A DNA stretch of 49,382 nucleotides from assembly GCA_021204335.1 (NCBI GenBank), contig JAJPZM010000324.1, forward strand, positions 1 through 49,382, written 5' to 3'. A program made the position numbers and the translations under genes. Shown here piece by piece: positions 792 through 34,792 of the stretch. The number at the start of each line of letters is the position of its first letter. Within the stretch, counting starts at the first letter, position 1. Source of the DNA: Parabacteroides sp. (lineage in GTDB: Bacteria; Bacteroidota; Bacteroidia; Bacteroidales; Tannerellaceae). The notes beneath the pieces are model-generated. The model worked only from the letters and a program-made list of their open reading frames with translations. It did not search any database and was not told where the DNA came from.

Positions 792-798
792 AAAGTAT

Positions 799-890
799 CA
801 TATATTATGATACGACTGTGTCACAATATATGATACTGCATTCTCATAATATATGGTACTACATTTTCATAATATATGAGAATATATTCT
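799..890. repeat. Four tandem imperfect 23-bp units with dyad cores
   Basis: 799 CATATATTATGATACGACTGTGT / 822 CACAATATATGATACTGCATTCT / 845 CATAATATATGGTACTACATTTT / 868 CATAATATATGAGAATATATTCT. The core of unit 1 (CATATATTATG) is the exact reverse complement of the cores of units 3 and 4 (CATAATATATG). Confidence 0.85.
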
Positions 891-14867: not shown

Positions 14868-15252
14868 TATAGCGTAGCGAGTTGCAGGCTATAGAGTAGA
14901 GAGTGCTACTCTTAAGGGGACGAGCCGATACTATATAGGGAAGAACCCGGCACTATAGTGCCATCCCGTCGGCATGAGTGTCCCGGATGACCAAAACAAT
15001 AGTGCTACGACCTGCCCAATCGGTTAAAAACACCCTCCTACAGAGCGATTCAGATTTTAGGTGTCACCCGTCACCGCTTCCAACCGATTTAGACATAGCA
15101 AATTACAGTGAAGGGTAAATTGTTTTAGCTTTTTTTAGGAAAAACATAGCAGAGTGTCCTAAACGACCACCCATAAGAAACGGCTTGGCATCGGATAGCA
15201 AATGAGTAGGCATCGAATGACAAACGGACAGGCACCCATTTTTAAGAGTAGG
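14868..15252. repeat. Degenerate intergenic array with ~22-bp periodicity (dxs-cstA spacer)
   Basis: TATAGnGTAGnGAGT at 14868 and 14890, TATAGGGAAGAACC at 14934; TAGTGC at 14956 and 15000; GTGTCCnnnAnGACCA at 14978 and 15154 (176 = 8x22 apart); GGCATCGGATAGCAAATGAGTA 15187 / GGCATCGAATGACAAACGGACA 15209 / GGCACC 15231. Confidence 0.55.
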
Positions 15253-15267
15253 GTGTTTTGAAATGTT

Positions 15268-15323
15268 AAGTCCAGTCTTTTAAAATCAAAATAAGGGGCT
15301 TTTGACTTTAAAAGACTGGACTT
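15268..15323. other. 24-bp-stem hairpin (8-nt loop), terminator-like on + strand (TTTTTT follows)
   Basis: AAGTCCAGTCTTTTAAAATCAAAA - TAAGGGGC - TTTTGACTTTAAAAGACTGGACTT; 23 of 24 pairs match, the remaining pair is G-T in the minus-strand RNA. Confidence 0.85.
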
Positions 15324-15457
15324 TTTTCGGCTGATCTGCATTATCCGGGTGAAAGCAGCAGGGTTCACCATATCTCACTATAACTTAACACATTACAAGA
15401 TAAATGAAACGTGAAATCAACTTATTGAAACATGGTGAGAGTATAGCCGAAATCGGA

Positions 15458-31363: not shown

Positions 31364-32284
31364 TCACTCTTTTTTCTCAGCAATCCTTAATTTGGCACTT
31401 CGCGAACGGGGATTTCGTTCGATCTCCTCGTCGGAAGGCACAACCACTTTATTATTTACCATACGAAACGGTGTTTGTACGTTTCCAAAAAAGTCCTGCT
31501 CGGTTTTACCTTCAAAGTTGCCCGTTTTCAGGAAGTTCTTTACCAGCCTGTCTTCCAGGGAATGGTAAGTGATGACCACCAGGCGTCCGCCGGGCTTCAG
31601 CACCTGCAAGGTTTGTTGCAGCATCTCTTTCAGGGCGCGCATTTCGTCGTTTACTTCAATGCGAAGCGCCTGGAATGCCTGTGCCAGGAACTTCTTCTCT
31701 TTGTCTTTTCCGGTAAAAGGCTTAACGACTTCCAGGAAGTCGCCGATTGTTTCGATTTTCTTGTTTTCGCGTGTCCGTACCAATACGGATGCCAGTTTAC
31801 GGGCAACTTTCAATTCGCCATACAGATAGAAAACATCTGCCAAGGCTTCTTCCGTATAGGTATTCACAATATCGGCAGCCGTCTGACCTGCCCGGGTATT
31901 CATGCGCATATCCAGCGCCCCGTCGAAACGGAAAGAGAAACCGCGGTCTTTATCGTCGAAATGGTGGGAAGAAACGCCCAGGTCTACCAACAGACCGTCT
32001 ACCTCGCCGGCAACGTCGTGGTAACGCATGAAGTTATACAAATAACGGAAGTTACTGCGGACAAACACGAAACGGTCGTCGTCGGGGATATTATGTTCGG
32101 CGTCAGCATCCTGATCGAAGCCATAAAGCTCGCCTTCGCCATCCAGCTGTTTCAATATCTCACGCGAATGCCCACCACCTCCGAAAGTAACATCTACATA
32201 GATGCCACCTTGTTGAATATTCAGACCTTTCACGCTTTCCTCAAGCATTACCGGTACGTGATAGCAGTTGTCTTTTTCTTCCAT
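31364..32284 (-). CDS. rsmH: 16S rRNA (cytosine1402-N4)-methyltransferase
   Basis: YHVPVMLEESVKGLNIQQGGIYVDVTFGGGGHSREIL, DGLLVDLGVSSHHFDDKDRGFSFRFDGALDMRM, SLEDRLVKNFLK. Confidence 0.96.
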   Translation of the reverse strand: MEEKDNCYHVPVMLEESVKGLNIQQGGIYVDVTFGGGGHSREILKQLDGEGELYGFDQDADAEHNIPDDDRFVFVRSNFRYLYNFMRYHDVAGEVDGLLVDLGVSSHHFDDKDRGFSFRFDGALDMRMNTRAGQTAADIVNTYTEEALADVFYLYGELKVARKLASVLVRTRENKKIETIGDFLEVVKPFTGKDKEKKFLAQAFQALRIEVNDEMRALKEMLQQTLQVLKPGGRLVVITYHSLEDRLVKNFLKTGNFEGKTEQDFFGNVQTPFRMVNNKVVVPSDEEIERNPRSRSAKLRIAEKKE

Positions 32285-32445: not shown

Positions 32446-32630
32446 CTACTTTTCTCTTGATAGAAAAGTAGGCAAAAGATCAAGGCTGCACCGGCTTCGC
32501 TGCTACGGCAAAAGACTACGCTGTCGTCTGTGAACTCGCTACGCTCAAACAGCACAGCCTCCGGACGCTTCGTCTTTTGCCTTCGCGGACGCTCACCCGC
32601 TGAGGCCTTTCATAGAACGCTCTGCGTTCT
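32446..32630. repeat. Hairpin-rich intergenic element, probably a dispersed repeat
   Basis: CTACTTTTCT-CTTGAT-AGAAAAGTAG hairpin; nested inverted repeats GGCAAAAGAC 32507-32516 / GTCTTTTGCC 32572-32581, GCTGT 32520-32524 / ACAGC 32554-32558, CTGT 32528-32531 / ACAG 32549-32552; AGAACGC-TCT-GCGTTCT 32614-32630. Confidence 0.65.
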
Positions 32631-32672
32631 CTTGGGATGGCCAATACTGGTAGTTGACATGGAGGTGGTTAG

Positions 32673-32766
32673 TTCCAAATAGTTTCTACTGTATGAAACT
32701 TTTGTTTCTCCTAAGGGAAACTTTTGTTTCATTAGAGAGAAACTAAAGTTTCACTTAAGAGAAACT
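32673..32766. repeat. Tandem 22-bp dyad-core repeat array
   Basis: 32695 GAAACTTTTGTTTCTCCTAAGG / 32717 GAAACTTTTGTTTCATTAGAGA / 32739 GAAACTAAAGTTTCACTTAAGA / 32761 GAAACT...; degenerate upstream unit at 32673 keeps GTTTC in phase. Confidence 0.85.
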
Positions 32767-32791: not shown

Positions 32792-34792
32792 TTAAATATT
32801 AACAGAGACAGTTGCCCCTTCTTTTACGGCTTTATGTAATACTGTTTTATCACCGGACTTGATAGTGACATCTTGCTTGCCGTTCTCACGAACTACTTCG
32901 ATATCGAAAGTCGAACCGAATGCTTGTACTTTACGCAGGCTCATCTTGTTCCACTCTGCCGGTAAACGGGGAGTAAGAGTGAATGAGTTTAATCCTGTCG
33001 GACGGATTCCGAATACACCTTCGGTGATGATGCGGCAGTATAATCCGCTTTCAGCGGAAAGATGGCGCTGGCTTCCTTCGGGCCAGGCTTCGATTGCGTA
33101 AGGGACATGCTCGCCTAACAGGCGCTGGTTGGAATAGAACTTTAGATATTCGGTTGCTTTTTCTGTTTCTCCGCAGGCAAATACGCCACGAAGGGCATAA
33201 AGGGTGGAACGATCCCAAAAGGTTTCACTGCCGACCTGGGTCAGCAAACCGTTTTCAGTCCACAGGCGGGGAGAGAACAAGGCATCGATCGTACCTTCTT
33301 TACGGTCGTAAATGCCAACCGTCAGCGGGATGCAGATCCAGGAACGAAGGACATCGTTTCCATCGTAATGCCGGTAAGTATCAAAGCCTTCTACTTTTGC
33401 ACCGAAATAGCTTTCGATATTTTTATGAAGGGCTTTTGCCTGTTTGTCGTAAGCTGCCAGCTGCGAAGATGGTTTACGCAGGTCTTTACCTAAATAGACC
33501 GCCGAACGCAGGGCGTCATAATATAAGGAAGAAGTACAAAGGTTCGCCTCTCCTGCCGGGAAACGTCCTTCCAACTCGTCTGCATCGGAAGCGACGACAC
33601 CCTTGTCATTCAGATTGCGGCGGCAATATTCCAGACACCATTCGATAAGTGGCCAGAGTTCTTCCGCCTCGGCTTTGTCTCCTCTCGCCAGGGCATAACG
33701 GGATGCTCCGTAAGCAACCATGGCAGCATCGCCACGATCGCCGGCTCCTCCCCAGATGTCTATCCCATCAGCGATAATGGAGCTGGGTATCTTTCCATAT
33801 TCGGGATTCATGAAGCGGGCAAAATGTTTGAAAGAGTTCAGGGCGGAACCGTTTCCGACTTCATAGCCCAGATAAGGGAAGAAGGGATTGATATATTCTG
33901 CCTGGTCATTCGCCCAGATAGCAGCATAATAGGATTCGCCGCCGGGGCCATGCATCAGTCCGCCTTTGGTATCGTAAATACTTTCTGCTCCGCGTATTTT
34001 GGCAAAGGCAAACATGGTGTTGATAACGGGATCGGGAGTTTCCAGGATCAGGTTATCCCAAAAGCCGGCAATCAGGGATTTGCGGGCCTGTAGTTCTTTT
34101 TCGACATCGGGCTTCAATTCTGTTTCACCTTTCTTATATCCGGTAATGGCGGCGTAGAAAACAAGTTCTTCATTGGGTTGAAGCTGTTTAGCCGTTGCCC
34201 CGATAATCTCGGAGACTAATTTGTAACTGCCATCTACCCCTTTGCCCGGATCCGTATCTATGACAGAACGGGAAACAGGAACTTCCACTGCAACAGGCGA
34301 CTCGCCGGTGTTTTTAAGAATATATTTCTCATAAACAGCCGGACGGGCTACGGACGGGAAGATTATACGGGTTAAAGCAACACGTGTATTACGTGACGGA
34401 CTGACAGCGCTTTCCACAACCATCGTGCCGTCCAGCGTTATCTTGCTTACTTTCTCGCCGGATAAAGACTGCCCGTTTACAGAAACCATATCCGATGCAT
34501 TCCACGCAAAACGGCGCATCAGACTGGCATGCGTGTTGTTCGGTATCGTACGCAGCATGGGCCAGATCATACTTTTATTCAACATAAAAGAGCCGTCAGC
34601 ATTCACGCCGTAACGCAGCACCGTCGAAACTTTCAAACCGCTCATCTCGATATGGTCATAATGAGGCAAATGCTCATTGATCTGCCACGAGATACTGCCG
34701 TCGGGATTGATCGACCAACGGTTTTGAGAGGCACCGAGCCCGGAACCTAAACACCAAAAGAGCAAAAACACAATTAAAATACTTCTATTCAT
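32792..34792 (-). CDS. Secreted six-hairpin ((alpha/alpha)6) glycosidase-like protein
   Basis: 666 aa with signal peptide; FWDNLILETPDPVINTMFAFAKIRGAESIYDTKGGLMHGPGGESYYAAIWANDQAEYINPFFPYLGYEVGNG and C-terminal GH78/GH95-like sandwich; exact GH family not assigned. Confidence 0.7.
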   Translation of the reverse strand: MNRSILIVFLLFWCLGSGLGASQNRWSINPDGSISWQINEHLPHYDHIEMSGLKVSTVLRYGVNADGSFMLNKSMIWPMLRTIPNNTHASLMRRFAWNASDMVSVNGQSLSGEKVSKITLDGTMVVESAVSPSRNTRVALTRIIFPSVARPAVYEKYILKNTGESPVAVEVPVSRSVIDTDPGKGVDGSYKLVSEIIGATAKQLQPNEELVFYAAITGYKKGETELKPDVEKELQARKSLIAGFWDNLILETPDPVINTMFAFAKIRGAESIYDTKGGLMHGPGGESYYAAIWANDQAEYINPFFPYLGYEVGNGSALNSFKHFARFMNPEYGKIPSSIIADGIDIWGGAGDRGDAAMVAYGASRYALARGDKAEAEELWPLIEWCLEYCRRNLNDKGVVASDADELEGRFPAGEANLCTSSLYYDALRSAVYLGKDLRKPSSQLAAYDKQAKALHKNIESYFGAKVEGFDTYRHYDGNDVLRSWICIPLTVGIYDRKEGTIDALFSPRLWTENGLLTQVGSETFWDRSTLYALRGVFACGETEKATEYLKFYSNQRLLGEHVPYAIEAWPEGSQRHLSAESGLYCRIITEGVFGIRPTGLNSFTLTPRLPAEWNKMSLRKVQAFGSTFDIEVVRENGKQDVTIKSGDKTVLHKAVKEGATVSVNI

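Follow-up and report, generated by a model that had tools for sequence, protein, structure and literature searches.

An intergenic array at positions 32682-32765 of a 49,382-nucleotide stretch of Parabacteroides sp. DNA (contig JAJPZM010000324.1; the whole stretch is called the window below) consists of four tandem palindromic units with a period of 22 bp, and is a member of a class of tandem dyads with periods of 21-23 bp in Bacteroidales. The same design is found before nearly every long HU-HIG gene tested, which suggests that such rows of units are landing strips for these proteins. The explanation that we favor, with moderate confidence and a probability of roughly 0.5, is that the arrays are binding platforms for dimeric proteins, that HU-HIG proteins are the best candidates for the class, and that the arrays act both as operators in gene leaders and as dispersed targets. 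Binding itself is inferred. No published description of the array class, or of its link to HU-HIG genes, was found in the open literature searched.

The array and its neighborhood

The relevant features of the window are as follows (ORFs were called by a simple longest-ORF method).

32682..32699, no strand: unit 1, GTTTC-TACTGTAT-GAAAC, arms exact
32704..32721, no strand: unit 2, GTTTC-TCCTAAGG-GAAAC, arms exact
32726..32743, no strand: unit 3, GTTTC-ATTAGAGA-GAAAC, arms exact
32748..32765, no strand: unit 4, GTTTC-ACTTAAGA-GAAAC, arms exact
32792..34792, minus strand: gene upstream of the array, a glycosidase according to the initial annotation; ORF without an NCBIfam match
31364..32284, minus strand: rsmH, which faces the array, first gene of a cell-division cluster (TIGR00006, E=6e-94)
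795..882, no strand: second class member in the window, four 19-bp dyads plus N4, period 23
15171..15339, no strand: two weak period-22 dyad arrays, intergenic (z=6.1 and z=5.7)

The initial annotation had reported an array at 32673-32766 with three full units; the array is real and its period is 22 bp (Tandem Repeats Finder), but it contains four full units rather than three. The spacers between the units are TTTT, TTTT and TAAA, so that the 22-nt unit can be written GTTTC-N8-GAAAC-N4. Because the units are both palindromic and tandem, the GAAAC-N4-GTTTC dyads originally noticed and the GTTTC-N8-GAAAC dyads used here are one array read in two ways. The array scores z=8.5, against a top value of z=6.2 in 1000 dinucleotide-preserving shuffles of its intergenic region. 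The gene at 32792-34792 ends 26 bp ahead of the array, and rsmH, on the same minus strand, follows 397 bp beyond it.

Two familiar identities were considered for the array and rejected. A CRISPR would have unique spacers of ~30-40 bp, whereas those found here are 4 bp long; an intrinsic terminator does not agree with AT-rich 5-bp arms, the lack of a T-run after the array and the absence of any orientation bias. A repeat of ~200 bp adjoins the array at 32447-32647 and has copies throughout the genus, often as inverted pairs separated by a few tens to a few hundred bp.

A class defined by period and symmetry

The initial annotation had inferred a structural class of intergenic elements in which the sequence varies and the period and symmetry are kept, and held that this would be refuted by a lag signal no stronger than in shuffled DNA, or by arrays all explained by one known repeat family. 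A scan for lag identity combined with local palindromicity, over periods of 12-40 and with no sequence model, supports the class and meets neither of these refutations. The scan gave 30 intergenic hits in 800 kb of P. gordonii (21 at 22 bp and 6 at 23 bp), 15 in 223 kb of the window's genome (7 and 5) and 13 in 400 kb of a third Parabacteroides, G012 (5 and 4). Dinucleotide-shuffled controls for the three genomes gave 5, 0 and 6 hits from three whole-sequence repeats each, which amounts to 0 to ~2 hits per genome-equivalent; the signal at 22/23 bp exceeds the shuffled control. No hits at 22/23 bp were found in 396 kb from two array-free Bacteroidales samples (G005 and G019). E. coli DNA has no match to the window array, and 50 kb of it gave no 22/23 signal either.

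More than 10 unrelated dyads fall into the observed class, among them GTTTC..GAAAC, CACCCGGGTG, GCCGACnnnnGTCGGC, TTCGTTTAAACGAA and CTACTTATAAGTAG. When identity and pairing are averaged over arrays, both periods give a peak ~3-8 bp off the axis and a fall beyond 9 bp. Judged from sequence alone, this geometry is that predicted for two half-sites about one helical turn apart with a 4-5 bp spacer, as for a helix-turn-helix (HTH) dimer. The window array meets the class criterion of at least three dyads of ~18-19 bp, a ~4-bp spacer and a strict period of 21-23 bp. The array at 795-882, which the initial annotation placed at 799-890, does share this design as had been proposed, with a period of 23 versus 22, and it too represents a dispersed family.

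Several variants deserve mention. The 23-bp family (window 795-882; L145-L149) has several loci in the genome and a conserved center, CATATATTATG, and its arms switch among GTATC, GTGTC, TTCTC and GTACC. A 16-unit period-22 array in G065 (L367:12887 onward) has GTTTCCC..GGGAAA-type dyads in its last four units and decayed symmetry in the others. Period-21 arrays of GCCGAC..GTCGGC type (L183, L190, L192 and L195) occupy the orthologous site of a GTTTC array. All four are similar to the operator that precedes a P. distasonis HU-HIG gene (L391), and they can also be read as heptads in one frame. The hits at L183 and L190 were read initially as coding heptads; the choice is undecided.

Distribution and context of the GTTTC family

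With two GTTTC units as the pattern, the window's genome gave 34 exact matches on each strand and the reversed control gave none. Allowing up to 2 mismatches, other members of the genus have 0 to 81 copies; among 198 genomes drawn from the order, 5 contain the pattern. Three units, searched for in 85,000 species, yielded at least 114 stretches, and the matches listed are nearly all from Bacteroidales, with the same arms in Bacteroides, Porphyromonas, Parabacteroides and others. Phages were rejected as carriers: viral contigs gave only 4 pattern matches in 2.9 million. The unit-to-unit spacing is 22 bp in 403 of 414 cases and the commonest unit number is four, with free variation in N8 and N4. 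The 800 kb of P. gordonii contain four runs of three or more units and no isolated intergenic unit. Flanks common to different arrays were not seen by inspection among Parabacteroides arrays; Porphyromonas arrays do share flanks.

The genes on either side of GTTTC arrays are co-directional, divergent and convergent in 51, 17 and 14 cases, the same mix as the background (140, 52 and 30) and without orientation bias. Where the -7 box of Bacteroidales (TAnnTTTG) could be seen between array and gene, it was at least 40 bp from the array and at no fixed spacing. Taken together, context and promoter distances fit neither terminators nor operators at a fixed distance from a promoter. A regulon was also rejected, since no family is enriched among the 137 genes that face GTTTC arrays (sigma-70, aminoacyl-tRNA synthetase and others have no more than 3 members).

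Some arrays have an internal polarity or symmetry. Those of G011 (for example C2:1742319-1742446) have polar arms, GTTTC..GGAAC in the same direction throughout, except that the first unit faces the opposite way from the others. Among three-unit arrays of the P. gordonii group, the N8 of unit 1 can be the exact reverse complement of the N8 of unit 3 (for example L058, L196, L201, L216 and L225); the relation is exact in 5 of 31 and holds at 7/8 or better in 7 of 31, the exact count being far above chance.

Constraint on the arms

Arm constraint is directly observed at orthologous sites. Between orthologous arrays of equal unit number, 2 of 350 arm positions have changed, compared with 117 of 280 in N8 and 39 of 100 in N4; four-fold degenerate sites in measured pairs of the same species differ at 27-48%. 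The P. gordonii ortholog of the window array (L197) keeps all four units and is identical at 39 of 40 arm positions, with 21 of 32 N8 positions and 9 of 12 N4 positions changed between flanks that are 85-88% identical. These ortholog pairs are not independent, and in many of them it was the arm pattern that led to both members. For an unbiased test, the P. goldsteinii sites corresponding to nine P. gordonii arrays were located through their flanks only. An array of the same family was retained at three of the nine sites and was missing or replaced at the remainder, and the three retained arrays differ at 1 of 90 arm positions, 26 of 72 in N8 and 10 of 24 in N4.

Arms that are nearly fixed while N8 and N4 drift about as fast as four-fold sites argue for each unit being a putative pair of sequence-specific half-sites. 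No compensatory change between the two arms of a unit was found, and this lack of covariation indicates that it is the sequence of the half-site that is kept, not pairing. At some intergenic GTTTC sites of P. gordonii, a relative holds a different 22-bp family (L155/G212 and L164/G211). An orthologous three-unit array (L176 versus L058/L297) aligns better between P. goldsteinii and P. gordonii as inverted in place, with 3 differences in N8 and 0 in N4, than directly, with 5 and 4.

HU-HIG genes and their leaders

Matches to the HU-HIG family (PF18291) number 54 in P. gordonii, 43 in the window's genome, 14 in G012, 5 in G005 and 1 in G019. HU-HIG genes are thus abundant where arrays are abundant, array-bearing genomes having 3 to 54 matches, but genome size is a confounding factor and there are exceptions: P. 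uenonis has 3 HU-HIG and 62 GTTTC matches, while G010 has 20 and 4. Long HU-HIG proteins combine an HU domain with a winged-helix-like C-terminus; the basis of the winged-HTH (wHTH) assignment is the family description in Pfam together with a motif conserved in the C-terminus, without a structure.

The association of long HU-HIG genes with arrays is a matter of observation. Each of the three long HU-HIG genes in unbiased P. gordonii DNA is directly preceded by a 22-bp dyad array with a sequence of its own, compared with one of five short HU-HIG genes from all unbiased samples. Among independent HU-HIG loci of P. distasonis, B. finegoldii and Ph. massiliensis, 14 of 15 have a leader array; these 15 were taken from annotated chromosome pieces labelled as plasmids. 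(The records in question, OY725747-OY726023, were deposited as plasmids of the three species and include genes of the chromosome, ruvA and queC among them.) Leader arrays are present at 17 of 18 long HU-HIG genes versus 39 of 947 background genes (~4%; Fisher p=1e-21). They start just after the -7 box, mostly at 23, 33, 44 or 53 bp and hence in steps of ~11, which is the placement expected of an autoregulatory operator. The leader arrays are therefore probably autoregulatory operators, with autoregulation inferred.

Protein similarity is correlated with operator similarity (Mantel p=0.0015 for the HU part and p=0.017 for the C-terminus). Considering that the signal is stronger for the HU part, shared ancestry may contribute. 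Dispersed arrays resemble HU-HIG operators beyond what their column-permuted versions do (8 of 46 at p<0.05; KS p=0.015): L334 and L380 match the operators L341/L391, and L378, of the 795-882 family, matches L398. Between the GTTTC half-site and the known HU-HIG operators the match is only weak, with p=0.075 for the window array; a likeness to the L402 operator, CGTTTGAC, was seen in one GTTTC array (p=0.035).

In the mechanism that we propose, each 18-bp unit would offer two inverted half-sites, GTTTC and GAAAC, to one dimeric DNA-binding protein; along an array, between three and five such dimers would lie side by side, every 22 bp. A long HU-HIG gene would have a gene-specific array at the start of its own leader, probably as an autoregulatory operator; arrays of the same families that lie scattered between other genes would serve as additional targets. 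Cooperativity remains an inference, as does the reading of GTTTC by an HU-HIG or similar protein. Since the window array has no adjoining HU-HIG gene and only a weak operator match, it is by its architecture that we assign it to an HU-HIG reader. A broader and more tentative idea, which we would not yet call probable, is a diversified chromosome addressing system of Bacteroidales. In it, every member of a set of HU-wHTH proteins that has expanded in the lineage would have a palindrome code of its own, given as 3-5 tandem sites at 21-23 bp, once before the gene of that protein and again at intergenic addresses scattered elsewhere.

If the proposed mechanism is correct, a large uncharacterized HU-like family of human gut bacteria gains candidate DNA addresses and hence a testable function, and many unannotated repeats of such genomes are accounted for, possibly including the minisatellites of P. 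gingivalis. Each HU-HIG gene seems to carry its own array, so that specificity could be deduced from sequence and tested for one gene at a time.

Other readers, other origins

Which protein, then, reads the GTTTC arms? Perhaps a different dimeric protein, such as a HipB- or Cro-like repressor, binds this family, and HU-HIG proteins read the other families only. By analogy a HipB-like reader is a serious alternative, possible in our judgment though short of probable. The HipB operators, TATCC-N8-GGATA, share the 5-N8-5 geometry (PMC3920265), P. uenonis has few HU-HIG genes, and no HU-HIG gene adjoins a GTTTC array in the loci examined, the window array itself facing rsmH; GTTTC arrays are also placed differently from HU-HIG leader arrays. 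Nevertheless, the two kinds of array are equal in period, unit count, N4 spacer and dyad profile, the likeness to the L402 operator has to be set against a separate reader, and no regulator family is preferentially flanked by GTTTC arrays. Lrp/AsnC octamers were rejected as a candidate, their copy number being 2-4 throughout and zero in array-rich P. uenonis.

Three other alternatives were weighed. Dispersed MITE- or REP-type mobile repeats, kept only by copying, would explain the range of 0-81 copies within one genus, the presence or absence of arrays at orthologous sites and the wider flanks common to Porphyromonas arrays, and there is a precedent in BrickBuilt, a 23-nt minisatellite inside a MITE (PMC4596501). 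We consider this unlikely as a full account, given arms that stay fixed while N8 drifts, a stable unit number without single units, and no flanks seen shared in Parabacteroides; a Y1 (RAYT) transposase as driver was rejected because PF01797 is absent from most array-rich genomes, namely G000, G011, G012, G211 and G065. Mobility is not excluded as the origin of new arrays. RNA hairpins (terminators, mRNA 3' ends or leader structures) are suggested by the palindromic units, by the leader position of HU-HIG arrays and by the reverse-complementary N8 of units 1 and 3 in the P. gordonii group. They are nonetheless improbable: the arms lack compensatory change, 17 of 82 arrays lie between divergent genes, a share like that among intergenic gaps generally, any promoter that can be seen has its -7 box 40 bp or more downstream of the array, and there is no Rfam family, a search having given only chance matches to microRNA models. 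Least credible of all is that template switching between inverted repeats (quasi-palindrome correction) homogenizes the arms in the absence of selection. Inverse N8 copies inside arrays and the better inverted fit of L176/L297 between species point that way, but it is difficult to reconcile with the same GTTTC arms in several genera, a period fixed at 22/23 for unrelated sequences, and the specific targeting of HU-HIG leaders.

Relation to described systems

REP/BIME elements with RAYT are likewise dispersed intergenic palindromes whose sequence varies by species; the arrays differ from them in their strict 22/23 bp phase and in the five array-rich genomes without a Y1 transposase. The closest described relative of the array class is BrickBuilt of P. 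gingivalis (Klein et al. 2015), an intergenic 23-nt tandem repeat within a MITE, with up to 18 full repeats and a leader and tail with IS5-like ends, described only from P. gingivalis and P. gulae (PMC4596501). When we rotate its consensus, it reads GAGA-YCATARTATCC-TCTC plus RTRT, a 19-bp near-dyad plus 4 bp. However, BrickBuilt has its own 23-nt unit, AGAYCATARTATCCTCTCRTRTG, unlike the 22-nt GTTTC-N8-GAAAC-N4 of the window; no protein link has been proposed for it; and the window array lacks the IS5-like terminal inverted repeats of its leader and tail, inspection having shown no shared flanks among Parabacteroides arrays. P. gingivalis W83 also has 22-nt tandem direct repeats, with sequence and locations not given (PMC4596501); their period of 22 is that of the window array, within the same taxonomic order.

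In the hipBA system, HipB binds four operators with the consensus TATCC-N8-GGATA cooperatively (PMC3920265), and the likeness lies in the 5-N8-5 geometry and the four operators for HTH dimers. That system differs in having one autoregulated promoter, half-sites of TATCC/GGATA as against GTTTC/GAAAC, and no dispersed class of many families. The leaders of HU-HIG genes (PF18291) carry arrays with the architecture of the window array itself.
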